Shown piece by piece: positions 4,905-32,681 of a stretch of DNA of 64,000 nucleotides. The position numbers were made by a program, and so were the translations under genes. Below the pieces are notes generated by a model that made no database searches, was not told the DNA's origin, and saw nothing but the letters and a program-made list of their open reading frames with translations. This DNA is from Truepera radiovictrix DSM 17093. GTDB lineage: Bacteria; Deinococcota; Deinococci; Deinococcales; Trueperaceae. Location of the stretch: positions 2,485,001-2,549,000 of the forward strand of contig NC_014221.1 of the NCBI RefSeq assembly GCF_000092425.1, in the 5' to 3' direction. Within the stretch, counting starts at the first letter, position 1; each line of letters starts with the position of its first letter.

Positions 4905-6460
4905 CTTTTCCCCACACGCGTGGGGATGAACCGATGCAGCGACTAAAGCACCGGGCCGAGGCTCTCTTTTCCCCACACGCGTGGGGATGAACCGCGTTCG
5001 GGGTATCGCTACCCCAAGTTCCCGTGCTTTTCCCCACACGCGTGGGGATGAACCGTCGCGGACGCGCGTGATTACCGTCAGCGTCTGCTTTTCCCCACAC
5101 GCGTGGGGATGAACCGGCGGCGGAGACGGTGCTGCGGACGGTTGCGCGCTTTTCCCCACACGCGTGGGGATGAACCGTTGCCGCCGCCGCGCTATCTGAG
5201 CCCGTACCCTTTTCCCCACACGCGTGGGGATGAACCGGACGAGCAGGGGCGCGTCCGCTACCTCGTCGACTTTTCCCCACACGCGTGGGGATGAACCGGG
5301 GGAGCTAGACGCGGCATGAAAAAGGGCGGCCTTTTCCCCACACGCGTGGGGATGAACCGCTCCAGGGGCTCGGGGAAGTTCAGCCAAACATCTTTTCCCC
5401 ACACGCGTGGGGATGAACCGCGCCTTGAACGAGCGGGTATCGGCTCTATCTCCTTTTCCCCACACGCGTGGGGATGAACCGGTACAGGGTGAGCACCCTC
5501 CCCTCCCCTTCCTCTTTTCCCCACACGCGTGGGGATGAACCGTAGGCACCTTCCTCGGCGTTGTAGAAGAGGGCCTTTTCCCCACACGCGTGGGGATGAA
5601 CCGGACAACGTGGGCAAGGTGTTGGCTTTTGCCCACTTTTCCCCACACGCGTGGGGATGAACCGAAGTACATCAACCGCGTCAAGGCACTCGGCCTCTTT
5701 TCCCCACACGCGTGGGGATGAACCAGTCTCTCTCGCCCCGCCCCCCCGGCATCGTCAGCTTTTCCCCACACGCGTGGGGATGAACCGTTGACGGCTTCAG
5801 GCGCGACGATGTTCAGAGCCTTTTCCCCACACGCGTGGGGATGAACCGGGTATGTCGCTGTAGCGCTTGGAGCAGGTCAGCTTTTCCCCACACGCGTGGG
5901 GATGAACCGAGATTGGTATGTGCTGACACGTGGCGACACCCCTTTTCCCCACACGCGTGGGGATGAACCGAAGCCGCGCAGCTCACCATCGATATCGCCA
6001 AGCTTTTCCCCACACGCGTGGGGATGAACCGTGGGGTGAGGTCGATCTACTCACCGGCTCGCACCCTTTTCCCCACACGCGTGGGGATGAACCGGACCGG
6101 GGCTTGTCCCTGAGAGCAAACGTGGCCTTTTCCCCACACGCGTGGGGATGAACCGGGTAGCAACAATCGCCTGCATCAGATCACGTCCTTTTCCCCACAC
6201 GCGTGGGGATGAACCGGCGCTGGGCCAGAGCGTCGACCCCAACGACGCCTTTTCCCCACACGCGTGGGGATGAACCGCGCGGGGGAGGTCTACGGCGAAA
6301 CTGAAACCTCTTTTCCCCACACGCGTGGGGATGAACCGCGCGGGGGAGGTCTACGGCGAAACTGAAACCTCTTTTCCCCACACGCGTGGGGATGAACCGG
6401 TGCTCCCCGGAGAGAGGAACACCCCAACCGGCTTTTCCCCACACGAGCGGGGACGAAATA
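4905..6460 (+). CRISPR. CRISPR array 1, type I-E, 26 repeats / 25 spacers, no adjacent cas genes
   Basis: 29-nt repeats (CTTTTCCCCACACGCG then TGGGGATGAACCG) start at 4905 and recur mostly every 61 nt, giving 32-nt spacers. Exceptions are spacers of 31 nt (spacer 5), 33 nt (spacer 14) and 34 nt (spacer 19). The final copy at 6432-6460 is degenerate (ACGAGCGGGGACGAAATA), marking the old end and confirming + strand orientation. Repeat 14 ends in A instead of G. Spacers 23 and 24 (6278-6309 and 6339-6370) are identical. Spacer 5 (5178-5208) also occurs in array 2. The repeat differs from that of array 2 at positions 3 and 14 only, so the cas genes at 22.7-31.7 kb can process it. Confidence 0.98.
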
Positions 6461-6484: not shown

Positions 6485-8104
6485 TCACACCCCACACAGG
6501 TGAACCTTAAGCCCCAACGCGGCGAACATCGCCGCTTTGACCTGCAACACGTGCTCAGCTTGTTCGGACGGAACGTAGGCCACCTGGATGTGGTTGGCTT
6601 TGTGCCGCGCCATCATCTGGTCGCGCGTGACGCCGCGCAAGACCGCGTGCATGATCGGCCACTGCGGCGTCGTCGCCTCCCACCGCCGCCGCGTCTCCTC
6701 CTCGGGGAGCGCGACCACCGTCGCCCGCCCGAGGTCAACCTCTAGAGCGCCCCCCTGCACGAACACGCGGCTCCAGATGATCTCACCTGGCTTACTGACC
6801 CCCTTGAGCGTTCCGCCCCCCAAAGGAAAGTACATGGGCGGCTGCCGCTCGCTCCGCGCCCCCGCGTAGCCGTCTACGAAGTGCGAGGCGGGGGCCGCGC
6901 CGGAGATCTCAAACACCCAAACGAACGGCTCCTCCCCAGCGATCGGGTAGGGCTCGCCCCAGCGCAGGTCGTGCAGCGTGGTCGAGGGCTCGAGCGAGAG
7001 CGCCGTCCACACCCGGTTGGTGACAAGAGCGTCCAAGGCGGCGCACTCGTCGACTTCGTTGAAGTGCGGCAGGGCGCGGCCCGGATAGAGCTCCTCGCCG
7101 GTCTCGGCGTGCAGCACGGGGGGGCGGTCGGGGTTGTTGAGCAGCCCTTCGACGAGGTCAGAAGCGGGCGTCATGTCTTTGAGGCCCTGCTGGTACTGGA
7201 TGCCCACGGCGTCGCAACCGAAGCGGTGGGCCATGCGCACGGCGGCGACGTACATCCTGGCCTGCTCCAGAAGCTGCGCTTCGGTCAGCTCGGTCTCGTC
7301 GTCCGTTCCCGTGACGAAGGTCACGCCGCGCCGGCGCAACCAGTCGAGGACGGAGCGCGCCTCGCTGCCCCGCACCAGGCGCATCTCGGCGACCAAGGCC
7401 GACTGCGACAGGCGCTCCTTGTAGACGCCCAAGGGGTTGAGGAGTTCGTCGTCGATAATGGCGTTGTACATCCCCATGCAGCCCTCGTCGAACACGCCCA
7501 AGATGGCCTTGTCGCGCCTCAAGGTCTCGGCCAAGTGGGCGCCCAGCTCGGCCGCTTCCGCTGAGAGGGCGCTGGGCTCGAGCGACCTAACGTGGCTGAG
7601 GTCGTGCTCGACCCTTCCCGTCGTCAACCATTCCTTGAGCCCGCGCTCGAAAAAGGGGTCGGTGAAGGTCTCGCTCCACAGCGTGCTGTAGGCGACCCCC
7701 GCCTTGGTCAAGGAGCCATTGAGGTTCAGCATCCCCACCAGCCCCGGCCACTGGCCGCTCCAGTTGGCGACCGTGAGGATCGGCCCCCGGTGGTCGCGCA
7801 GACCGGCCAGGACGTGGTGCGAGTACTGCCACACGGCCTCGGCGACGACCAACGGGGCATCTTTGGGAACCGTCCGAAACACGTCCATCCCCATGCGCTG
7901 CGACGAGATAAAGCCGTGGCCGGTGCGTTCGTCGAAGGGGTGGGCGCGCGTCACCTTGACGCCGTGGCGCCCGAAAGCCTCCGTTAGCGCCGCCTCCATC
8001 GCCGCCTGAGCGGGCCAGCAGACGCGGTTGGCCGTCTCGCGCAGGTCGCCGCTCGCGACCAAGAGGGCGTGGGTGATGGGCAGCGTGGGTTGCAGGTCGT
8101 CCAT
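6485..8104 (-). CDS. L-fucose/L-arabinose isomerase-fold protein
   Basis: 539-aa soluble protein whose layout resembles the fucose/arabinose isomerase-like family: an N-terminal Rossmann-like part (ITHALLVASGD near the start, VVAEAVWQYSHH, TVANWSGQWPG) and a C-terminal part with EISGAAPASHF and FPLGGGTLKG. Such enzymes interconvert aldoses and ketoses using a divalent metal. It is the last gene of a ribose-type ABC operon, 8 nt after the transaldolase-like gene, so it probably acts on the imported sugar or its product. The exact substrate cannot be read from sequence. The last codons lie 24 bp from the end of CRISPR array 1. Confidence 0.65.
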   Translation of the reverse strand: MDDLQPTLPITHALLVASGDLRETANRVCWPAQAAMEAALTEAFGRHGVKVTRAHPFDERTGHGFISSQRMGMDVFRTVPKDAPLVVAEAVWQYSHHVLAGLRDHRGPILTVANWSGQWPGLVGMLNLNGSLTKAGVAYSTLWSETFTDPFFERGLKEWLTTGRVEHDLSHVRSLEPSALSAEAAELGAHLAETLRRDKAILGVFDEGCMGMYNAIIDDELLNPLGVYKERLSQSALVAEMRLVRGSEARSVLDWLRRRGVTFVTGTDDETELTEAQLLEQARMYVAAVRMAHRFGCDAVGIQYQQGLKDMTPASDLVEGLLNNPDRPPVLHAETGEELYPGRALPHFNEVDECAALDALVTNRVWTALSLEPSTTLHDLRWGEPYPIAGEEPFVWVFEISGAAPASHFVDGYAGARSERQPPMYFPLGGGTLKGVSKPGEIIWSRVFVQGGALEVDLGRATVVALPEEETRRRWEATTPQWPIMHAVLRGVTRDQMMARHKANHIQVAYVPSEQAEHVLQVKAAMFAALGLKVHLCGV

Positions 8105-8112
8105 GGGTTACC

Positions 8113-8805
8113 TCAGGTGTCGTGTGCGTTCATGAGCGCGCGGGCGTCCTCCAGAAACGTCTCGGCGGCGCGGGCCGTTTCGGCGTCGTTTGTCAGCTCG
8201 GTGAAGAGCGCGGGCGGCAGGGTGAGCGCCCCGACGCCCAGCTCGAGGAGCGCCAGCACCGCCTCGCGCGTGCGCACGCTCGCCACGAGCAAACGGGTCG
8301 GGTGCGCGCCCGCGTAGCGCGCCAAAAGCCGCTGCATCCGCCCGATTAAACCTAGGCCGTCCTCCCCGGCGTCCTCCAAACGCCCCAAGTAGGGCGCGGC
8401 GTAGGCGGCGCCCACCATCTGCGACCAGAGGGCCTGCTCGGGGCGGTAAACCGCCGTCATCGTCACGGGGACCCCTTCGGCGACGAGCGCCGCCGCCCCC
8501 GAAAACCCCTCGCGCGTCGCCGGGATCTTGACGACGACGAACCCGGGCGGCCCCAATGCGGCGAGCTCCCGGCCCGCCTCGAGGGTCTTTTCGGCGCTGC
8601 TGCACGGCACCTGGAGGTGCACGGCCCGGGCCCCAAGCCCCTGCACCGCCGCCGCGAAGCCCGGTAGGTCGGCGTAAGCAAGGCCAGCGCGCCGCATCAG
8701 CGTGGGGTTGGTGGTGACGCCGTACACCAGCGGGTTGGGCAGCACCCCCCTTAGCACCTCCAAGTCGGCGCTGTCGAGGTACACGTGCGGCTCCGGAGGA
8801 TTCAC
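8113..8805 (-). CDS. Transaldolase / fructose-6-phosphate aldolase family protein
   Basis: 230 aa, the length of the short transaldolase (FSA/TalC-type) class. The Schiff-base lysine sits in VVVKIPAT (Lys93), and the N-terminal YLDSADLEVLRG and VYGVTTNPTL are family hallmarks. It should cleave or form a C-C bond in a ketose (phosphate). The GTG start overlaps the permease stop by 4 nt, so it is co-translated with the sugar importer. Together with the isomerase-like gene it suggests a short catabolic route for the imported sugar. The precise substrate is unknown. Confidence 0.85.
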   Translation of the reverse strand: MNPPEPHVYLDSADLEVLRGVLPNPLVYGVTTNPTLMRRAGLAYADLPGFAAAVQGLGARAVHLQVPCSSAEKTLEAGRELAALGPPGFVVVKIPATREGFSGAAALVAEGVPVTMTAVYRPEQALWSQMVGAAYAAPYLGRLEDAGEDGLGLIGRMQRLLARYAGAHPTRLLVASVRTREAVLALLELGVGALTLPPALFTELTNDAETARAAETFLEDARALMNAHDT

Positions 8806-9773
8806 GCCTGCCGCCGTTTGCGCAGCTGGTCGGTGTAGACCACCCCGACGATGATGAGCCCTGTGATGATGGGCTGCCAGAAGGGGTTGACGCCCAGCAG
8901 GTTGGAGCCGTTGTTGATGGTGGTGAGTAGCAGCGCGCCGATAAAGGAGCCGATGATCGACCCCTCCGCGCCGAAGAGGCTGGCGCCGCCGATGACCGAC
9001 GCGGCGATGGCGTCGAGCTCGTAGTAGGTGCCCGCCGTGGGGATCCCCACGCTGATGCGCGAGGCGAGCAGGATGCCCGCGAGCGCAGCGAGCGTCGCCG
9101 AGACGGCGTAGGCGAGGTAGATCGTGCGGCCGATCTTGACGCCGCTTAAGCGCGCCGCCTCGCGGTTGCTCCCGACCGCGTAGATGTAGCGGCCGAAACG
9201 GCTCCGCTGCAGCAGCACAAAGGCCAAGACGCCCACCAAAATGACCATCCAGAAAAGGCTCGGGATCCCCAAAAACGACACCTGCGAGAAGTTGGTAAAA
9301 CCGCGCGGCAACCCCCCGATGCTCTGCCCGTTGGTGATCAAGAGCGCCACCCCGCGCAGCCCCACGAGCGACGCGAGCGTCATGATAAAGGGCGGCAAAC
9401 CCAGGTTGTAGATCCCGAAACCGTGGTAGATGCCGACTACAGCGCCCAAGAGCAGCGTCAAGACGATCGCTAAGGGCAGCGGCACCCCGGCTTGCAGCAA
9501 GAGCGCCAGAACGACCCCGCTAAGCCCCACCACCGCCCCCACCGAGAGGTCGATGCCAGCGGTGATGATGACAAAGGTTTGACCGAAGGCGACGAGCGCC
9601 CCGATGGAGGTCTGGCGCACCAGGTTGCTGATGTTCTGCTCCGTGAAAAAGGTGTCGGTCGCGAGCGCCAACACGAGCCACAAAAGCGCCAAGAGCCCGA
9701 AGAGGGTGAGCTGCAAGAGCGTCTTGGGGTCGAAGCGGCGGCCTGGAGCAGTTTGCGGCGTGGTGTCGGTCAT
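8802..9773 (-). CDS. Ribose-type sugar ABC transporter permease (RbsC-like)
   Basis: 323-aa membrane protein of the RbsC/AraH/XylH family: about 8-10 hydrophobic segments, with the conserved FVIITAGIDLSVGAVVGLSG and a later SVIGGASLFGAEGSIIGSF (both typical family blocks). It forms the channel of a CUT2 importer with the ATPase encoded just upstream. The start codon overlaps the ATPase stop by 4 nt and its own stop overlaps the aldolase start, so the genes are tightly coupled. Confidence 0.93.
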   Translation of the reverse strand: MTDTTPQTAPGRRFDPKTLLQLTLFGLLALLWLVLALATDTFFTEQNISNLVRQTSIGALVAFGQTFVIITAGIDLSVGAVVGLSGVVLALLLQAGVPLPLAIVLTLLLGAVVGIYHGFGIYNLGLPPFIMTLASLVGLRGVALLITNGQSIGGLPRGFTNFSQVSFLGIPSLFWMVILVGVLAFVLLQRSRFGRYIYAVGSNREAARLSGVKIGRTIYLAYAVSATLAALAGILLASRISVGIPTAGTYYELDAIAASVIGGASLFGAEGSIIGSFIGALLLTTINNGSNLLGVNPFWQPIITGLIIVGVVYTDQLRKRRQA

Positions 9774-19069: not shown

Positions 19070-22000
19070 CGGTTCATCCCCACGTGTGTGGGGAATAGGA
19101 CTGGCTCAATCTTGACAAAAGGGGATGAACCGGTTCATCCCCACGTGTGTGGGGAATAGCTCGACGAATCGCTGGAGCACGCCTGGATTGCCGGTTCATC
19201 CCCACGTGTGTGGGGAATAGTCCGAAGGCGGCATTTCGCAACTGGGGCTCTTTCGGTTCATCCCCACGTGTGTGGGGAATAGCTAGCACATGCGCTGCAC
19301 GGCCTATCAGTGTCCGGTTCATCCCCACGTGTGTGGGGAATAGAATTCGCTCCCTTTGACGAGGTCGTCAAGGTCCGGTTCATCCCCACGTGTGTGGGGA
19401 ATAGGCGGATCAACTCCAGCGGGCGAACCAGGCGCTCTGGTTCATCCCCACGTGTGTGGGGAATAGGAGCATGGCCTCGTAGTGACGGCCGAGCTTGCGG
19501 TTCATCCCCACGTGTGTGGGGAATAGGCCGTGCAGAGCGCTAGTCACCATAAAGCCATCGGTTCATCCCCACGTGTGTGGGGAATAGTGAGAGGCTAGGA
19601 TGTGTATGGCGGCCAGCTCCGGTTCATCCCCACGTGTGTGGGGAATAGGAGTTTACCAACGCCTATCTGGTCGGCACCCACGGTTCATCCCCACGTGTGT
19701 GGGGAATAGGAGCCAGGTGATCATGGCGTGCTCACCCGCCTCGGTTCATCCCCACGTGTGTGGGGAATAGTTTGACGCCTGTGACCTGTGGAGCGCTTCG
19801 TTCGGTTCATCCCCACGTGTGTGGGGAATAGATGCCCCTACTGACTCGCTCGGAAGGTTAAGGCGGTTCATCCCCACGTGTGTGGGGAATAGAGCCAGAC
19901 CGGTGCGCTTATCCATCCGCCCAACGGTTCATCCCCACGTGTGTGGGGAATAGGCATACCTTATGCACCACACCGACCCGCGCCGCTGGTTCATCCCCAC
20001 GTGTGTGGGGAATAGGATGACGCGCTGCACGCCGGTGAGCACGCCGGTCGGTTCATCCCCACGTGTGTGGGGAATAGTGCTTTAGCCCTGTTGAAAATCA
20101 CGCTGTTTGCGGTTCATCCCCACGTGTGTGGGGAATAGTAGCCCCCGATACCGAGCAAGTTGCTGACGCCCGGTTCATCCCCACGTGTGTGGGGAATAGG
20201 TCGTCTAGGAAGAGCTGCACAACCTCACCACCGGTTCATCCCCACGTGTGTGGGGAATAGGGCGAGCCGCTCCAACGCCTCCACCCCCTGGACGGTTCAT
20301 CCCCACGTGTGTGGGGAATAGGTTAACCTTGTCTATCCTGGTGTCGCTCCTCGCGGTTCATCCCCACGTGTGTGGGGAATAGGTGTGGCAGTGACCACAC
20401 CCTAGGCGAGCGCATCGGTTCATCCCCACGTGTGTGGGGAATAGTTGGCTCCAGGTCTCGAGCTGGCCCTGGAGCGCGGTTCATCCCCACGTGTGTGGGG
20501 AATAGGCAACGTAAACCGGAACGGTTCCCCGAACTCCGCGGTTCATCCCCACGTGTGTGGGGAATAGGGTTAGGTACGTCCGGGTTGGAAGCCCGATTTT
20601 CGGTTCATCCCCACGTGTGTGGGGAATAGGAGGTCAACCGGACGCCTGTGGGTGGCGTCGTAGGTTCATCCCCACGTGTGTGGGGAATAGCGCGGGTGGT
20701 GCATCTGCATGTCCTCATGGACCGGTTCATCCCCACGTGTGTGGGGAATAGCACAACCCACTTGGCCTTATCGCCTTGACCCTGCGGTTCATCCCCACGT
20801 GTGTGGGGAATAGCTTAGCCCACCCGCGCGGCGGGAAGGCTAAGTACGGTTCATCCCCACGTGTGTGGGGAATAGCACAACCCACTTGGCCTTATCGCCT
20901 TGACCCTGCGGTTCATCCCCACGTGTGTGGGGAATAGCTTAGCCCACCCGCGCGGCGGGAAGGCTAAGTACGGTTCATCCCCACGTGTGTGGGGAATAGT
21001 CGCGCGGGTCCACGTAGGGGAGCGCCTGAGCCGGTTCATCCCCACGTGTGTGGGGAATAGGGCCTGCTCGTCGCTCACCGCCCGGGCCGCCTCGGTTCAT
21101 CCCCACGTGTGTGGGGAATAGCCGTGGCGTGACGCGCTCATCGACCGGCGAATCGGTTCATCCCCACGTGTGTGGGGAATAGCGCTGAACGCCTGCCCGA
21201 AGGGAGGAAACGACCGGTTCATCCCCACGTGTGTGGGGAATAGCGCGCCCCACCACTCCTTTTCAGGCCGGAAAGCGGTTCATCCCCACGTGTGTGGGGA
21301 ATAGCGGTACGGGCTCAGATAGCGCGGCGGCGGCAACGGTTCATCCCCACGTGTGTGGGGAATAGGCAGATTGAGCACGTGAGAGCGCACGCTGGGCGCG
21401 GTTCATCCCCACGTGTGTGGGGAATAGACCCGAGCAATCATGGCCGAGCTGCCCGACTCCGGTTCATCCCCACGTGTGTGGGGAATAGGGCGGGCGGGAA
21501 CACCAGCAGCGCCGCCGCGCCGGTTCATCCCCACGTGTGTGGGGAATAGCCCGTTCCCAGCCGTCATCAGGTGGTGGAACGCGGTTCATCCCCACGTGTG
21601 TGGGGAATAGACCGTCAACGACCTCGACGGCGAGGTGGTCAACGGTTCATCCCCACGTGTGTGGGGAATAGCGCGTTCTGATCGGGTCTCTAGCCTACTA
21701 CTACGGTTCATCCCCACGTGTGTGGGGAATAGGTTGTAGTGGGCGCCGAATTTGTCTTTCAAGAGGGTTCATCCCCACGTGTGTGGGGAATAGGCCCGCC
21801 GGTGGGTAGGGGCTCTTGAGCCCCTACGGTTCATCCCCACGTGTGTGGGGAATAGGGCAAAAAACTGCTCCGGAGGTTCTCATGTCCCGGTTCATCCCCA
21901 CGTGTGTGGGGAATAGCCCGTCCTGTTGGGGGTCGCTGTGCGTGGTCGCGGTTCATCCCCACGTGTGTGGGGAATAGACCGTTCACATCCCTCCCGTACC

Positions 22001-22589
22001 GGGTACCGACGGTTCATCCCCACGTGTGTGGGGAATAGTTCATCGACTTTACAAGAACACCGCTGCACGACGGTTCATCCCCACGTGTGTGGGGAATAGG
22101 AGGATGGATGATGATGAAAGCTGTCGCCACGCGGTTCATCCCCACGTGTGTGGGGAATAGGCTTGCGGCTCATCCTGTGACAGCTCTTGCAGCGGTTCAT
22201 CCCCACGTGTGTGGGGAATAGCAGTGCTGGCCCAACCCGCGAGCACTGGAGCTCGGTTCATCCCCACGTGTGTGGGGAATAGGGGATGCGCATGCCGTCG
22301 CCGTTGACAAGCGCCGGTTCATCCCCACGTGTGTGGGGAATAGGATGCTCGACCTCCTCGGGGGGGCGTGCGACGGCGGTTCATCCCCACGTGTGTGGGG
22401 AATAGTCCATCTCGGAAGTTGAAAGGAGACGAGCGGGCGGTTCATCCCCACGTGTGTGGGGAATAGGTCGTAATCCCTGGCCGGTTTTATCCGACAAGCG
22501 GTTCATCCCCACGTGTGTGGGGAATAGGCCCGAGACCTCTGAGTCGGTGCCGGTGAGCATCGGTTCATCCCCACGTGTGTGGGGAATAG
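19070..22589 (-). CRISPR. CRISPR array 2, type I-E, 58 repeats / 57 spacers, linked to cas operon
   Basis: 29-nt repeats, on the + strand CGGTTCATCCCCACGT then GTGTGGGGAATAG, start at 19070 and end at 22589; spacers are 31-33 nt. Transcription is on the - strand, continuing the cas operon direction, so the newest spacers are near 22560. Spacers at 20752-20784 and 20814-20846 are repeated at 20876-20908 and 20938-20970 (124-bp tandem duplication). Spacer 21305-21336 is the same guide as array 1 spacer 5. The repeats at 19438, 19987, 20662 and 21765 have a changed terminal base. The spacer at 19099-19130 begins, in guide orientation, with an inverted copy of the repeat end. Confidence 0.98.
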
Positions 22590-22699: not shown

Positions 22700-23011
22700 T
22701 CAGCTTGCTGGCTCGACAAACATCTGCTCCCACTTGGCGTTCTTGACGGTGACGAGCATAAGCCCGTCAAAGTCACGAATGCTTCGGTTGCTGTCGCCGT
22801 GCATGCGGATGGCGTAGCCCTGCTCGTTGTTGGTGCGGTAAAGCTGACAGCAACGGCCGGCGCGGCTCTTCTCAACGCACTTGTCCCACAGCAAGTCGCG
22901 CACCATCGCGCTCATCGAGCCGACGAAGACGCCGGTTGAGACCTCGAGCATCCAGCGCGTCAGCTCACCCCTCAGGCTCTTGGGCACCTTCTCCAGCACC
23001 ATCACCACCAT
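22700..23011 (-). CDS. cas2: CRISPR-associated endoribonuclease/integration subunit Cas2e
   Basis: 103 aa from the ATG at 23011, which has a fine ribosome site (GGAGGTGTCATCT before ATG). A longer reading to 23134 would only overlap cas1. The start VVMVLEKVPKSLRGELTRW and the block TGVFVGSMSAMVRDLLWDKC match the Cas2e family (E. coli Cas2 is 94 aa). It forms the Cas1-Cas2 integrase complex that inserts new spacers. It overlaps cas1 by 47 nt and is the last cas gene before the leader and array 2. Confidence 0.93.
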   Translation of the reverse strand: MVVMVLEKVPKSLRGELTRWMLEVSTGVFVGSMSAMVRDLLWDKCVEKSRAGRCCQLYRTNNEQGYAIRMHGDSNRSIRDFDGLMLVTVKNAKWEQMFVEPAS

Positions 23012-23927
23012 AGATGACACCTCCGGCGACATTTCCCGCGGGGTCCCACAGCTCGCCGGGTTTTGAAGGGTCGTCGGCGTAGGGGTCGGGAAGTTCGAGG
23101 TCATCAAAGAGCGCATGTAAGTCGGCAACGACACGCTCCAAGAGCTTTACCTCGCGCAGCTGATCACGCAGGGTGTGGCGCACCCGCCGCTCGACCCCTT
23201 CGGATGACTCGGCGACCACCTTAAACGCTGTGGGGATGAGCGTTTCAGCCTTGTAGAGGTCGGCGATGTCGTAGACGAATGAGAGCTGTTTGCCGGTGTG
23301 GATAAAGCCCAAAGCTGGGCTATAGCCGGCGCTGACGATGGCGGCGTGGCAGAGTCCGTAAAGGCAGGCGGCTCCGGCGCTGATGGCACGGTTGATGGGG
23401 TCGGCTTGCGTCCAGTTGCCGCGGCTATAGTTGCGCCCATACCAGGGAACGCCGGTCTCGCGGCTCCAGTAGGCGTAGGTATCGCGTACCCGCACCCCCT
23501 CGTAGCCGCGGATCTGCTGCAGGGTGAGGCCTTCGGGCAAGGGCTCGGGGAAGCGCAGGGCGTAAAGCCGCTTGACGACCCTTAGCCTGGTGTCGTGGTC
23601 GCTGTAGGCGGCCACCTGCCGCAACAGGTGTTGGGTGCTGCGCGTCTCACCCAGGCCGCAGGCGTAAAAGCGCACCATCTCCTCGCCCACCCAAAAGACG
23701 CTGCAGCCGTTATTGGCAAGCGCGCGAATCGCCGCGTGGGTGACGCTGGTGCCGGGCCCGAGCATCAGCACCCCCAAAGCGGCAGCGGGTACGGCGGTCA
23801 TGCCGTCTGGGCCGTAGTGGGCGATCGCTTGATCCTCTTGCTCGATACGGCCGTGCTCGAGGTAGAGGTAGCTCAGCCCATCGCGGAACTTGGGCAGCTC
23901 TTTGAGGTTTTGGGTGGTGTAGGGCAC
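22965..23927 (-). CDS. cas1: CRISPR-associated integrase Cas1e
   Basis: 320 aa. Metal-binding active-site residues can be assigned by family pattern: Glu143 in RGYEGVRVR, His210 in LGFIHTG, Asp220 and Asp223 in FVYDIADLYK. It catalyses spacer integration at the leader-repeat junction. GTG start with AGGGGGT 5 nt upstream, 3 nt after the cas6e stop. All catalytic residues are present, so adaptation is probably functional. Confidence 0.96.
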   Translation of the reverse strand: MPYTTQNLKELPKFRDGLSYLYLEHGRIEQEDQAIAHYGPDGMTAVPAAALGVLMLGPGTSVTHAAIRALANNGCSVFWVGEEMVRFYACGLGETRSTQHLLRQVAAYSDHDTRLRVVKRLYALRFPEPLPEGLTLQQIRGYEGVRVRDTYAYWSRETGVPWYGRNYSRGNWTQADPINRAISAGAACLYGLCHAAIVSAGYSPALGFIHTGKQLSFVYDIADLYKAETLIPTAFKVVAESSEGVERRVRHTLRDQLREVKLLERVVADLHALFDDLELPDPYADDPSKPGELWDPAGNVAGGVIYGGDGAGEGAQEPEG

Positions 23928-23930
23928 CGT

Positions 23931-24563
23931 TTACCCCCTAGCGACCGAAAGCAGCCCGCAGCCGAGCGCTTTGGCGTGGCCGAGGCCGCACTCGAGGGTA
24001 GTTAAAAAAGCGTCGACATCGGTGACGCGCAGGTGACCGTCGTAGGTGACGCTCTGCAGGGTGATGCGGTGCCCCGCTCGTCCGTCCTTTGGGGGTTTGT
24101 GCGCGCTGACGCGCTCGCTGCTCGTGACCATAGCGCCAAGCACCGCAAAGCCGCCGCGCTCGCCCTGCCGGTAGAGCCAAGCGAGCTGCGCTTCCAGGGT
24201 GACGAGCCCTAAGCGCTTCCGTTTGCCCTTTTGGGGGTCGAGCTTGGTGACCGTCGGGTTGGCGCGCAGGCGAAAGCGCAGCAGCTGGCCAGCCTTAAAG
24301 GTGGGCTCAAACGGTTTGGGACTTTGGGCGTCGAGCGTCGCGTAATCGGGGTGGCGGCTAAAGAGCGCTGGCCAGTCGGGGGGGGTGAGGCTTTGCACGA
24401 GCAGGACCGCTTCGCGCCGGCTCTGCTCGAGCCGCCACAGCGGGCGCCCGCCCTCGCGACCGGCAAAGGCCCACGACAGCGTAGCGTGCATCTCGTAAGG
24501 GTTGGCAAGGTCGCGCCGGGCTTGTTTGGCGCGGGGGTTAAGCTGGAGCTTGCTCAGGTACAT
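23931..24563 (-). CDS. cas6e: Cas6e (CasE) crRNA-processing endonuclease
   Basis: 210 aa from ATG 24563 (GAGGTGCCCT upstream); a longer frame to 24620 overlaps cas5 further and lacks support. The family N-terminus YLSKLQLNPRAKQARRDLAN, then NPYEMHATLSWAF with candidate catalytic His26 and Tyr23, and the glycine-rich C-terminal loop GLGHAKALGCGLLSVARG are present. It cleaves the repeat stem-loop (CCCCAC/GTGGGG) and stays on the 3' handle. Overlaps cas5e by 26 nt. Confidence 0.94.
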   Translation of the reverse strand: MYLSKLQLNPRAKQARRDLANPYEMHATLSWAFAGREGGRPLWRLEQSRREAVLLVQSLTPPDWPALFSRHPDYATLDAQSPKPFEPTFKAGQLLRFRLRANPTVTKLDPQKGKRKRLGLVTLEAQLAWLYRQGERGGFAVLGAMVTSSERVSAHKPPKDGRAGHRITLQSVTYDGHLRVTDVDAFLTTLECGLGHAKALGCGLLSVARG

Positions 24564-25230
24564 AGGGCACCTCGATAGAGTCTGCAACAACGTAGCGGGC
24601 GCCAAAGCGGCGCTCAGCAAAGGCCCCTAAGGGTTGATCCATCCGTAAGGAGCCGCTACCGTCGTCGCTCTCGAGCCACACGGGCAGGCGTTGCGATGCC
24701 AGCGGGTTGCCGTCTTGGTCGCTTGACCATCGCTGTCCTATAAAGGGATACCCGAGGGCGTCGCGCAACGGTTCGTCGCGCAGCCCATCTTTGAGGTAAA
24801 CCCCTGGGCTAGGCAGATAGCCCTTGCGCCCCAAGTACAGCGGCCAGGTTGGATGGCGAAGGGCCCGGTGGGCCCTCGCCAACAATGGTTGGTCATCCCC
24901 TTCAAGGCCAACCAAAAAGGCGGCGTCTGAGAGGTAGTAACGCCTGGAAATGGTCGTTGGGTGCACCTTGGATTCGTCAGCGGCGATCACGTTTTGGGCT
25001 GTTTGGTAGTCGTAGCGCAACACCCCCGGCTGGTCGACGCGCACCCCCATGCGCAGTGCAGCAAGCTCTAACACGGGCTCGAGCGCCTCGCGGTAAATCC
25101 CCATCGCAGCACAGAGCAGCCCAATGACCCCGCTTTTCGAAGGGATAAGGTCGCTGTCGCGTTCGTCGAAGCGGCTTTTAGTGCCCCAGGACTGCATGGG
25201 GCCAGCGAGCCGTAAGAGCAAGGTCGGCAC
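24538..25230 (-). CDS. cas5e: Cascade subunit Cas5e (CasD)
   Basis: 230 aa from a GTG at 25230, one base after the cas7e stop. This start gives PTLLLRLAGPMQSWGTKSRF, the classic Cas5 N-terminus; the longer frame is rejected. SKSGVIGLLCAAMGI is the conserved helix after it. Cas5e caps the 5' handle (AUGAACCG) of the crRNA and anchors Cse1. Length fits E. coli CasD (224 aa). Confidence 0.94.
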   Translation of the reverse strand: MPTLLLRLAGPMQSWGTKSRFDERDSDLIPSKSGVIGLLCAAMGIYREALEPVLELAALRMGVRVDQPGVLRYDYQTAQNVIAADESKVHPTTISRRYYLSDAAFLVGLEGDDQPLLARAHRALRHPTWPLYLGRKGYLPSPGVYLKDGLRDEPLRDALGYPFIGQRWSSDQDGNPLASQRLPVWLESDDGSGSLRMDQPLGAFAERRFGARYVVADSIEVPYVPEQAPA

Positions 25231-25231
25231 G

Positions 25232-26406
<1,175 letters not shown>

Positions 26407-26410
<4 letters not shown>

Positions 26411-26997
26411 GATTCCTCTCCTTCGTAGGTGGCGTTGGCGACGGTGCGGTAAAAGGCCCGCGCCCACGTCTGTTGCACGGGTTTGCCTTCACGGTTCCAA
26501 GCGAGCAGGTCGCGCAGCAGCGCGCCCCAGTGGATGCGGATGGCTTCATCCCCCTTGAGCAGCTGCACCATCTGGCGCAAGCGGTAAGGGAGCTGCTCTC
26601 GGTCGGCGTCAAGCAGCGCGACGAAGCGCTGCTCGATGCTTGGGCTCTGACTGCGCGCCAGGTAGAGCTGCGCGATGGCGTGACCGAGGGCGCGGCGGTA
26701 GCCCTCAGTGGGTTGCGGATCGGCGCCACCCTCTAGCCCCTCGTCGTCCACCGCGTCGCGAAATTGCTCCAGCTCGGACGACGACACCGTCCCCGCCCAC
26801 AGCCCTGCGACCAGGTAGAGCATCTGCCGCTCCCAGGCGTTGTCGTAGTCCTTTTGCAAGCGCGCGACGAAGACTTCGACCAGCGGTACGACCTGCGCTC
26901 CCGGCTCAGCGACGCCGCGCCTGAGCCGGGCGAGATCGGCGCTCTCGGCGTTGCGCCGCAGGTGCCGCATAAACTCGCGCTCAACGACCTGTTGCAC
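26407..26997 (-). CDS. cse2: Cascade small subunit Cse2 (CasB)
   Basis: 196-aa helical protein (E. coli CasB 160 aa). FMRHLRRNAESADLARLRRG matches the Cse2 N-terminus, with basic patches that line the displaced DNA strand. GTG start at 26997 with AAGGAGGTCACCG upstream. It overlaps cse1 by 17 nt. A dimer of Cse2 stabilises the R-loop in Cascade. Confidence 0.92.
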
Positions 26998-28519
26998 CGG
27001 TGACCTCCTTCTGCTGGTAGATGTGGCTAAACAAGATGCCTTCGCTCTTGTAGATCGCCCGCAGCGCTCGAGCGTCGTCGCCGGCGGCGAGGCGCGTCAG
27101 CTGCCAGGCGCGCCGGGCCGCCTGCTCGAGCGCTTCTTGCCAGCGCTGCGTGAGCTGCGCCTCGTCAAAGTCAGCTTTAAGCCCCTCGAGCCACTCACCA
27201 AAGCGCTGCTCGAGCACTGACCAGTACGCGGTATGATGCGGGAAGCTCTGAGCGAGTCTGCCAATATCGTCCCTGTGCGGTTGCCGGTCGCCTAGGGTCA
27301 GCAGCTCTTTGGCCAACGCTCTAGCGGCGCTGCTTAGCCGCTGTCCCATCGCCTCGGCCTTTTCAAGGTTGCTCTCGACAAACCGCCACACCTCGCGGTC
27401 GCTCAAGACGGCTTCCGGCAGCTGGTAGACCTCCCCTCGCCACAGCTCGATCTTGGCTTGGTCGTTGGCAAAACCGGCGACAAAGACCGGCAACTTGCGT
27501 TCACCAAAGGTGCCGCTGAGCGCGCTGCAAAGGTTGCGCGCATGGTCGGCGACCCCTAGGCTATGCCCACCAGGGCGCGGCAGGAGTGAAGCGTAGTCAC
27601 GCCACAGCGCGCGCCCCTCGCGAAAACCGAGTGGGTAGACTTTGGTTGGGTCTTTGGGGTCGCGTCGGAAAGCGACCATCGGGTCGGGGCGCACCGCCGC
27701 CTCTTCATAGCGGATGCCGGAGGCGTAGGCGATCCAGCGCACCACCGTTTGGCCGCCTTCGCTTTCGGGGTGCAGGCGCACCGAGCGCGCCAGCCAGGTG
27801 TAGCGGTGCACGATCCCTTTGGCGCTGCCCCGCGCGGCCTCACAGTCGGCCATATCGGTGACTTTAAGGGGCGGTTGCTCCCAGGTCGCGGCGTCCTGTG
27901 CGTGTTCGCGCTCGGAGTAAGGCACGAGGTTCAGGCACAGGGTTTGGTGCAGGTTGTCCCCTAGCACCAGCGCCAGCGCCGCGGTGGCCACCGGCGCGGT
28001 AGCAGTGTGGCAGAGCACGCTTTTGCCCGCTGAGATGGCAAAGGTTTGATTGCTGACGAGCAGTCTAGCAGCCTCAGCAGGTAAGAGCGGCCTTGGGCGC
28101 GAGGTGATGGTGTGGTCGAAGAGCACCTTGTTATTGTCCGAGTTGAGCTCCGGCGCAAGCACCGTCCACGAGCGGCTCGAGCGCTCAGGACCAAAGTCGG
28201 CCACCTGATAGAAGGGCGCTTCAGGGTGAAAGAGGTCGAAGCGGTGTCGATAACGCTCGAGGTAGGCGCGCACCCTGTTCGCATCGAAGCCTTCCTCAAA
28301 CCACTCCGCTGCTTGCTCGGCGTCCTCTGGCCCAGCGAGCGCCCGGTGCAAGACGGCGAGCAGCAAACGGTGTAATGAAACGGTGACGAGCGGGCTGGGG
28401 TCTTCGATGCGGTTATAGCGATGAGCTTCAAGCAGGGCCGCTTCGAGGCTCACGAGCTTGTGTGCTGCGCCCTCGCGTACAGGGATCCAGGGTTCGGTGA
28501 TGAGGTTGAATGTGGGCAA
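26981..28519 (-). CDS. cse1: Cascade large subunit Cse1 (CasA, Cas8e)
   Basis: 512 aa from a TTG start at 28519. The TTG is chosen because AAGGAGGT lies 5 nt upstream and because it yields the family N-terminus PTFNLITEPWIPV; the longer frame to 28594 has no ribosome site. The protein reads the PAM, loads target DNA and recruits Cas3. Length equals E. coli CasA (502 aa). The distal helical bundle is at the C-terminus. It lies 52 nt after the 59-aa gene and is driven by the promoter at 28824-28852. Confidence 0.95.
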   Translation of the reverse strand: MPTFNLITEPWIPVREGAAHKLVSLEAALLEAHRYNRIEDPSPLVTVSLHRLLLAVLHRALAGPEDAEQAAEWFEEGFDANRVRAYLERYRHRFDLFHPEAPFYQVADFGPERSSRSWTVLAPELNSDNNKVLFDHTITSRPRPLLPAEAARLLVSNQTFAISAGKSVLCHTATAPVATAALALVLGDNLHQTLCLNLVPYSEREHAQDAATWEQPPLKVTDMADCEAARGSAKGIVHRYTWLARSVRLHPESEGGQTVVRWIAYASGIRYEEAAVRPDPMVAFRRDPKDPTKVYPLGFREGRALWRDYASLLPRPGGHSLGVADHARNLCSALSGTFGERKLPVFVAGFANDQAKIELWRGEVYQLPEAVLSDREVWRFVESNLEKAEAMGQRLSSAARALAKELLTLGDRQPHRDDIGRLAQSFPHHTAYWSVLEQRFGEWLEGLKADFDEAQLTQRWQEALEQAARRAWQLTRLAAGDDARALRAIYKSEGILFSHIYQQKEVTGATGR

Positions 28520-28571: not shown

Positions 28572-28751
28572 TTAAGAGGTGTCGTCCCAGGCATCGGCGT
28601 CGTAAGCGCCGTGCTGCTCGAGCAGCCGGTACTCTGCTAGGCGCAAACGCAGCTCGGCAAGGAGCTGAGCAAGGTTGCGCACGCGCGCCGCTCGAGCGGC
28701 GTCGGCCACTAACTGCACGAGGTCCTCGTCGGCTAAACTGCCATAGAGCAC
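28572..28751 (-). CDS. Unknown 59-aa helical protein, first gene under the Cascade promoter
   Basis: Starts at GTG 28751 with a very strong ribosome site (AAAGGAGGTGA, 5 nt gap). The protein begins VLYGSLADEDLVQLVADA (initiator V read as M), is rich in Ala, Leu and Arg, looks like two amphipathic helices with a heptad-like LAQLLAELRLRLAEYRLLEQ, and ends in an acidic tail. No family is recognised and standard I-E operons lack such a gene. It is about 65 nt downstream of the predicted transcription start and precedes cse1. It may be a Cascade accessory or regulator, or the toxin of a CreTA-like pair, since its promoter is the one targeted by the adjacent guide RNA. Confidence 0.6.
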   Translation of the reverse strand: MLYGSLADEDLVQLVADAARAARVRNLAQLLAELRLRLAEYRLLEQHGAYDADAWDDTS

Positions 28752-28823
28752 GGAGTTCACCTCCTTTCTCACCGGAGACCCCCTCTCAGCTTGGCGGCGG
28801 GCGGGGTTTTTCGGGTTAGGCAG

Positions 28824-28852
28824 ATTGTAGAAGATATGGTGGGCCTTGTCAA
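28824..28852 (-). promoter_or_regulatory. Promoter of the 59-aa gene / cse1-cas2 operon
   Basis: - strand: -35 TTGACA (28852-28847, full consensus), 17-nt spacer, -10 TACAAT (28829-28824, one mismatch). It is the best sigma-70 promoter in the window. Start of transcription is expected near 28816. The -35 lies inside the 32-nt site recognised by the neighbouring guide RNA, so Cascade binding would block RNA polymerase. Confidence 0.88.
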
Positions 28853-28880
28853 TCCCTAAAACCCTGTGAGCAACCAACTT
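28846..28880 (-). promoter_or_regulatory. Cascade target site (PAM plus protospacer) covering the operon -35 box
   Basis: On the - strand AAG (28880-28878) is followed by the protospacer 28877-28846. Against the pseudo-spacer at 28949-28918, positions 1-5, 7, 8, 10, 11 and 13-17 are identical (pattern TTGGTnGCnCAnAGGGT), then identity drops (19 of 32 overall). Mismatches at 6, 12 and 18 fall on the bases that Cascade flips out. AAG is the preferred type I-E interference PAM in E. coli. The poor PAM-distal pairing is as expected for binding without Cas3 cleavage. Confidence 0.8.
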
Positions 28881-28888
28881 AAAAATCT

Positions 28889-28917
28889 CTGCAAAACCCC
28901 ACGGATGTGGGGAGAGT
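28889..28917 (-). repeat. Degenerate CRISPR repeat 2 of the mini-CRISPR
   Basis: 19 of 29 positions equal the array 1 repeat (- strand reading ACTCTCCCCACA then TCCGTGGGGTTTTGCAG). The stem is intact (CCCCAC/GTGGGG) while the 3' handle ATGAACCG is lost, so it can be cut by Cas6e but cannot start another crRNA. No indels relative to the repeat. Confidence 0.8.
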
Positions 28918-28949
28918 TTGGCTTGCAGCGCGACCCTATGCGCTACCAA

Positions 28950-28978
28950 CGGTTCATCCACGCGCGTGCGAGGAACGG
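28950..28978 (-). repeat. Degenerate CRISPR repeat 1 of the mini-CRISPR
   Basis: 23 of 29 positions equal the array 1 repeat without gaps (mismatches at 2, 3, 8, 10, 17, 19). The last ten bases GGATGAACCG are unchanged, and CACGCGCGTG can still form a short stem. It begins 7 bases before the cas3 stop codon is reached from the other side (cas3 ends at 28985). Confidence 0.88.
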
Positions 28979-28984
28979 CGCCTA

Positions 28985-31675
<2,691 letters not shown>

Positions 31676-31700: not shown

Positions 31701-32681
31701 TCATCTAACGTCGCAATGTCGCGCCGCCACCTGCCGCGCCTCCTCGAGCCAGCGGCGCCTTAAGGCCTCAGGCTCTAGCACCTCCACCCGCGCCCCCCAG
31801 CTCTGCACCCAAGGCAGGATCTCCAAGGGAAACCCGGCGCTGTCCGTCCCGACGCGTAGGCGCACCACGAGGCTGCCGTCTGCGCAGCGCTCCTCGACGG
31901 TCACGTCGAGGTAGCCCCCCTCCTCGAGCCGGTAAGCCGCCTCGGGCGCAAAGCGCAGCCGCACCGTCTCGAGGGCGCCGCCGCTCGTACCCACGACGCC
32001 CCACGCGTTCTGAAGGTAGCGGTTCGGATCGAAGGTCGGGGGTACCACATAGGTGTCCTCTAGCAACCTGACGTGCCGCATCCGCGAGAGCTTCCACGTC
32101 AGGATGGCCCGGTGAAACGTGCGCTCGAAACCGATGGCGTAGGGCGCTAAGTTGTCGCGGCTGACCTCGACGAAGTAGACCTCGAGCTCCTTGTTGCGCC
32201 AGCGGCCCGAACCACCCGGTGACCGGTATTCAAAGGCGAGCACCCGACTTTCGAACCAGGCTCGGGCCACGAGCTCGAGCGTCCGGTCGTCGCGCGGTCT
32301 CCCCTGCAGCGCTTCAGCGCTCCTTAGGGCGGCCTCTCGGGCAGGCTCCGGCAGGAGCGCCGAGAGCTTCTCGAGAGCGGAGCGGTAAGCGGGGCTGCGG
32401 GTCGGTGAATGGTGGTAGAGGAGCCTCACCGCCGCGTGCACAGCGAGCGCCTCAACGGCGCTCAGCCGGTGGTGAACATGTGGGATGCGGTAGCGTCCAC
32501 GGCTCACCGCTTCAACCCCCTCGCCCATGTCGCGTAACGCCTCGAGGTCGCGCTGAACCGTCCTCACGGAGACGCCAAAACGCTCGGCGAGCTCGGAGGT
32601 GCGGCGCGGTTTGAGGCGTAACAGTTCGGCAAGCGCGACGAGCCGGCGCGCTTCGCAGGTGGCTCTGCGCTGAGGGGTCAC
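31701..32681 (-). CDS. HTH-WYL transcriptional regulator upstream of cas3
   Basis: 326 aa. N-terminal DeoR-type HTH (ELLRLKPRRTSELAERFGVSVRTVQRDLEAL, here cited as TSELAERFGVSVRTVQRD), a middle WYL domain (residues about 130-210) and a C-terminal extension. WYL proteins sense ligands, in several cases nucleic acids or nucleotides, and regulate CRISPR and phage-defence genes. The GTG start lies 5 nt behind a TAGTCT box (32692-32687), suggesting a leaderless transcript. It probably controls the regulator-cas3 unit or the whole locus. Confidence 0.88.
   Translation of the reverse strand: MTPQRRATCEARRLVALAELLRLKPRRTSELAERFGVSVRTVQRDLEALRDMGEGVEAVSRGRYRIPHVHHRLSAVEALAVHAAVRLLYHHSPTRSPAYRSALEKLSALLPEPAREAALRSAEALQGRPRDDRTLELVARAWFESRVLAFEYRSPGGSGRWRNKELEVYFVEVSRDNLAPYAIGFERTFHRAILTWKLSRMRHVRLLEDTYVVPPTFDPNRYLQNAWGVVGTSGGALETVRLRFAPEAAYRLEEGGYLDVTVEERCADGSLVVRLRVGTDSAGFPLEILPWVQSWGARVEVLEPEALRRRWLEEARQVAARHCDVR

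Follow-up and report, generated by a model that had tools for sequence, protein, structure and literature searches.

The window analysed here is a 64,000-nucleotide stretch of the Truepera radiovictrix DSM 17093 genome (positions 2,485,001 to 2,549,000), the 3,260,398 bases of which form a single contig. It carries a complete type I-E operon on the minus strand, in the order cas3, cse1, cse2, cas7, cas5, cas6e, cas1, cas2, together with two CRISPR arrays (all coordinates below are positions in the window):

28985..31675, minus strand: cas3 (type I-E helicase-nuclease; matches to TIGR01587, TIGR01596 and PRK09694), the 3' end of which contains a putative promoter for a CreR (cas-regulating RNA)
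26981..28519, minus strand: cse1/cas8e (TIGR02547)
22700..26997, minus strand: cse2, cas7, cas5, cas6e, cas1 and cas2 (TIGR02548, TIGR01869, TIGR01868, TIGR01907, TIGR03638 and TIGR01873)
19070..22589, minus strand: main CRISPR array, 58 repeats, downstream of cas2
4905..6460, plus strand: second CRISPR array, 26 repeats, oriented opposite to the main array

Relatives and a Shine-Dalgarno sequence point to the TTG at 28519 as the likely start of cse1; the open reading frame counted from an ATG extends to 28594. Directly 5' of cas3, on the same strand, lies the gene for a WYL-domain regulator (HTH_11, WYL and WCX domains; 31701-32681, minus strand), a possible second regulator of the locus.

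Within the cas3-cse1 gap, apart from the arrays and adjoining the complete effector operon, sits a mini-CRISPR that consists of two degenerate type I-E repeats and one pseudo-spacer:

28984..29013, minus strand: putative CreR promoter, TTGGCG-18-TATGAT, found by promoter scan inside the 3' end of cas3
28950..28978, minus strand: degenerate repeat 1, 29 nt, CCGTTCCTCGCACGCGCGTGGATGAACCG
28918..28949, minus strand: pseudo-spacer (candidate CreR guide), exactly 32 nt, TTGGTAGCGCATAGGGTCGCGCTGCAAGCCAA
28889..28917, minus strand: degenerate repeat 2, 29 nt, ACTCTCCCCACATCCGTGGGGTTTTGCAG

Repeat 1 matches the repeat of the second array (4905-6460) at 23 of 29 positions and that of the main array (19070-22589) at 22 of 29. 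It retains the 8-nt 5' handle ATGAACCG, and its stem folds with one mismatched pair. For repeat 2, the corresponding counts are 19 and 18 of 29; its handle is replaced by TTTTGCAG, and it retains the Cas6e-type hairpin CCCCACATCCGTGGGG (CCCCAC....GTGGGG). The mini-CRISPR repeats are one base nearer to the second array than to the cas-adjacent one.

A promoter scan of 500 bp returned two promoter-like sites, compared with 0.2 expected, namely, the operon promoter described below and the putative CreR promoter. Transcription from the latter is predicted to begin with the first base of repeat 1, and its TATGAT is retained in three of the four relatives that share the Truepera layout (see below) and missing from locus L042, which lacks the module. 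Since T-rich sequence lies 3' of the repeat-2 hairpin in Truepera, in a distant relative (G024), and in the Thermus-like loci, this hairpin may also terminate transcription; a terminator scan of the Truepera locus returned no terminator at the hairpin. Rfam searches of the CreR locus and four relatives gave no known family, and a mir-22 match fell under the cut-off.

The pseudo-spacer aligns to a site on the promoter of the cse1 operon, the first gene of which is a small open reading frame (ORF):

28878..28880, minus strand: AAG protospacer-adjacent motif (PAM) of the target
28846..28877, minus strand: target protospacer, identified by spacer alignment and chance tests
28824..28852, minus strand: promoter TTGACA-17-TACAAT of the small ORF and cse1-cas2, 11 of 12 consensus bases
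28572..28751, minus strand: 59-amino-acid (59-aa) ORF with a GTG start, the first gene under the target promoter

The -35 element TTGACA (28852-28847) is contained in the target protospacer. Spacer and target match at positions 1-5, 7, 8, 10, 11, and 13-17, with mismatches that include positions 6, 9, 12, and 18, so that 14 of the 15 positions from 1 to 17 other than 6 and 12 are paired. Over the whole spacer, 19 of 32 positions match, but only 5 of the last 15 do so. These alignments agree with the first-pass annotation, which had reported repeats of 23/29 and 19/29 around 32 nt (counts that hold against the array at 4905-6460), the same matched positions with mismatches at 6, 12, and 18, an AAG PAM next to a target that includes the -35 TTGACA of the small-gene and cse1-cas2 promoter, and poor PAM-distal pairing.

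We gauged how often such a match would arise by chance by scoring random 17-mers from the window: of 99,159 such 17-mers, 4 reached the score of the pseudo-spacer at one or more of the 46 PAM sites that the cas3-cse1 gap contains, an estimate (~4e-5) that applies to the Truepera locus alone. None of 81 array spacers scored as well as the pseudo-spacer over 1.6 kb, and the promoter site was the sole mismatch-free match to the PAM-plus-seed pattern in the entire genome.

A search for relatives at the family level yielded only one distant relative, G024, whereas a search of the phylum gave a useful set. Cse1 relatives were present in 45 of 111 Deinococcota genomes, and we examined 40 stretches around the matches, to which L083, located by a search with the gap DNA, was added. 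The locus scan was strict, with repeat and hairpin filters; a broader scan was noisy from chance matches in GC-rich coding DNA. A mini-CRISPR was found in 10 relatives, always in the cas3-cse1 gap (L039, L047, L040, L083, L072, L050, L055, L056, L066, and L070), some of which are referred to as Meiothermus-like or Thermus-like, genus labels that rest on relatedness. The repeat handle abuts the spacer and the repeat-2 hairpin is conserved in 11 of 11 loci. Spacer length varies: it is 32 nt in Truepera, 31 nt in G024, and 19 to 20 nt in the other nine. A further candidate, a single spacer near cas6e at L049 (14573-14662) that is flanked by one repeat of 26/29 identity and one decayed repeat, was left out of the CreR count because it has no target nearby.

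All 11 spacers pair with a site downstream of their own mini-CRISPR, which lies on the cse1 promoter in 10 of the loci. Positions 1, 2, 4, 5, 7, 10, and 11 are never mismatched, whereas mismatches occur at position 6 in 9 of 11 loci, at position 12 in 10, and at position 18 in 10; since the scan score omitted positions 6 and 12, it could have favored the mismatch excess at these two. We therefore repeated the gap search with equal weight on positions 1-11 and no PAM requirement, and the top site was unchanged in all 11 loci, with an AAG PAM in 10 and ATG in 1. Judged from these alignments, the mismatch pattern across the 11 loci is the 5+1 pairing rule of Cascade. The CreA-type seed (positions 1-5 and 7-11) is paired at 9 to 10 of 10 positions across the loci; in Truepera it is 9 of 10, with position 9 mismatched, and position 8 is mismatched in G079, G061, and G069.

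The spacers also covary with their targets. When spacers and targets were permuted across genomes, 0 of 200,000 permutations reached the true total; within the same-strand group (defined below), 2 of 120 did so, including the true order, the single tie arising from a swap of two near-identical loci. Compensating changes were visible relative to the window at position 3, which is G to A in both spacer and target of G069, and at position 1, which is T to G in both in G080. Covariation between the pseudo-spacer and the promoter site in related genomes had been proposed in the first-pass annotation as a check on its reading, and it held in these 11 genomes.

These data bear on whether the mini-CRISPR could be the decayed remains of a normal array, with a match to the promoter that is coincidental. 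Its degenerate repeats and single spacer are what such a remnant would look like, but the low chance probability at the Truepera locus, the recurrence of the same arrangement with different spacers in ten further genomes, and the covariation, which contradicts it, make this explanation almost certainly wrong.

The loci fall into two main layouts, within each of which the promoter geometry is constant. Truepera shares the same-strand layout, in which target and operon are on one strand, with four Meiothermus-like loci; here the -35 element begins 25 nt after the start of the protospacer. The opposite-strand layout is that of G024 and of four Thermus-like loci; here the target lies on the other strand, and its PAM (CTT when read along the operon strand) overlaps the start of the -35 box. 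G042 has a third arrangement, with the ATG PAM, and no clear cse1 promoter was located at its target. Since spacer and target form a direct repeat spaced by 60 to 72 nt in the same-strand layout, and since a WYL gene lies 5' of cas3, their similarity might instead reflect paired DNA operators for a protein regulator such as the WYL protein. The orientation is nevertheless reversed between the two layouts, a PAM occurs on the target side only while the repeat handle adjoins the spacer at every locus, and the mismatches are located at positions 6, 12, and 18; we thus consider paired operators highly improbable.

The mini-CRISPR of Truepera is instead very probably a CreR-type autorepressor of the type I-E system. 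Its anatomy, pairing, overlap with the promoter, covariation, and uniqueness in the genome support this reading at the level of sequence, and we infer the transcription, processing, binding, repression, and relief that would complete the circuit. The autorepressor proposed in the first-pass annotation is borne out to the same extent, given that position, PAM, pairing pattern, promoter overlap, and covariation all fit the CreR type.

In the circuit that we propose, the mini-CRISPR would be transcribed from the promoter within the end of cas3, and Cas6e would trim the transcript to a crRNA-like guide made up of the handle ATGAACCG, the spacer, and the repeat-2 hairpin. In complex with this guide, Cascade would bind the promoter of the small ORF and cse1-cas2 through the PAM and seed pairing and obstruct RNA polymerase at the -35 element, such that Cascade would restrict its own synthesis. 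The block would be lifted by whatever occupies or disables Cascade, such as an anti-CRISPR or numerous crRNAs, relief of this kind being adopted by analogy from the published CreR model (PMC12737573, PMC13131331). Cas3 would escape the brake, its gene being located upstream of the controlled promoter, and only Cascade and Cas1-Cas2 would be held down. Because pairing fades after about position 17, we propose that Cas3 would not be licensed and the DNA would remain uncut.

The proposal that Cascade could sit on the promoter without licensing Cas3 draws on data from Escherichia coli type I-E and on CreA genetics. In E. coli, AAG and a short seed are enough for binding, interference requires pairing over more than 18 bp counted from the PAM, and mismatches across positions 19-32 spare binding (PMC5904413). 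In H. hubeiense CreA, nucleotides 1-5 and 7-11 are required while 6 and 12 are free, and single seed changes abolish activity (PMC8501985). The seed mismatches at position 9 in Truepera and at position 8 in G079, G061, and G069 would sit uneasily with this sensitivity of CreA, although the aligned pairing extends to position 17.

The small ORF raises the question of what else the guide may control. The 59-aa family is present in exactly five genomes of the 111, all with the same-strand CreR layout, and a second small-ORF family is present in exactly four, all Thermus-like with CreR. Pfam gave no confident match for either family. The 59-aa product is predicted to be a two-helix protein (mean pLDDT, 78). 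Homology between the two families was considered and set aside, the link being weak and confined to 15 C-terminal columns. A further element separates the cse1 promoter from the small ORF:

28771..28815, minus strand: hairpin in the 5' untranslated region (UTR), with an invariant CGCCGCCAAG loop

Four pairs of this hairpin show compensatory change across the five same-layout genomes.

The guide could serve mainly to repress a toxin encoded by the small ORF, freed when Cascade fails, as in CrePA or CreTA, with control of the Cascade genes being incidental. The ORF is placed first in the operon that the target promoter drives, the two families occur in exactly nine CreR loci (Truepera, Meiothermus-like, and Thermus-like) among the 111 genomes, and ORF and guide were lost together in L042. 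On the other hand, the same promoter drives the entire Cascade operon, the known CreP carries a KilA-N domain (PMC12737573) whereas Pfam gives the small ORF no domain, and the guide persists where the ORF is shortened to 26 aa (the Thermus-like G092) or absent (G042). We consider toxin control as the main role improbable. A little less doubtful, but still unlikely, is that the small proteins belong to the autorepressor circuit as a second output, released upon overload or disabling of Cascade, and act, for instance, against anti-CRISPRs, in the assembly of Cascade, or as a mild toxin.

In most other Deinococcota type I-E loci, cas3 and cse1 are almost adjacent and the guide is absent, which indicates that the module is dispensable. 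On a tree of Cse1, at least 7 to 8 gains or losses of the module are required. G069, which has the module, and G082, which does not, share 99.2% DNA identity in the 6.6 kb downstream of it and 94.7% in the 4.7 kb upstream, and ~430 bp with the guide, promoter, and small ORF are missing from G082 relative to G069. The cas3-cse1 gaps of L060 and L073 are short and without a guide. In L063, the wide cas3-cse1 gap (7600-8990) holds a transposase-like insertion and is possibly a lost CreR site. Separately, Meiothermus-like I-E operons carry a DUF2939 gene, the product of which likely has a membrane anchor, inserted between cse2 and cas7 and absent from the window:

L041, 4910-5410: DUF2939 gene
L043, 10768-11300: DUF2939 gene
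L040, 6400-6940, complement: DUF2939 gene

CreR has been published for types I-B, I-E, and V-A (Liu et al. 2023, doi 10.1016/j.chom.2023.08.005, as cited in PMC13131331 and PMC12737573). CreR, as described there, and the Truepera module both combine a mini-CRISPR beside the cas genes with a crRNA-like guide of limited complementarity to a cas promoter, and type I-E is among the reported CreR types. Given that type I-E CreR is already on record, the novelty of our finding is limited. The accounts of CreR in two reviews (PMC13131331, PMC12737573) do not mention two layouts, a PAM inside the -35 element, 19- to 20-nt spacers, CreR-linked small ORFs, or a 5' UTR hairpin.

CreA of CreTA (PMC8501985) resembles the Truepera module in that two degenerate repeats are present, the 5' handle has 8 nt, and the PAM overlaps a promoter element; the CreA seed, at 1-5 and 7-11 with 6 and 12 free, is paired at 9 of 10 positions in Truepera. 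However, CreA guards a toxin RNA, whereas Cascade itself is under the promoter targeted in Truepera. CrePA (CRISPR-repressed protein toxin; PMC12737573) likewise places a guide RNA on a promoter ahead of a small protein gene, but Truepera lacks a KilA-N toxin and its operon is the cas operon. In type II-A Cas9 autorepression (Workman et al., as cited in PMC13131331), an effector also represses its own genes and anti-CRISPRs relieve the repression, but the effector is a different one and a mini-CRISPR is not involved.

New among the details are small genes restricted to CreR loci, the repeated loss of the module, and the spacer length of 19 to 20 nt that most relatives have. Guides of this length fall within the range in which type I-B can repress without cutting, as an engineered Haloarcula system shows repression but no interference with spacers of up to 24 nt (PMC10989794). 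G069 and G082, two near-identical systems of which only the first has the module, allow a direct test of what the brake costs and what it brings. If the second-output reading were true, one guide RNA would govern both the supply of the immune complex and an alarm protein. Taken together, these loci provide natural, sequence-level evidence for RNA-guided autorepression of cas genes in a phylum that comprises thermophilic and radiation-resistant bacteria, in which guide and promoter covary, drift is seen at the bases flipped out by Cascade, and two ways of aiming at the -35 element are displayed across loci.
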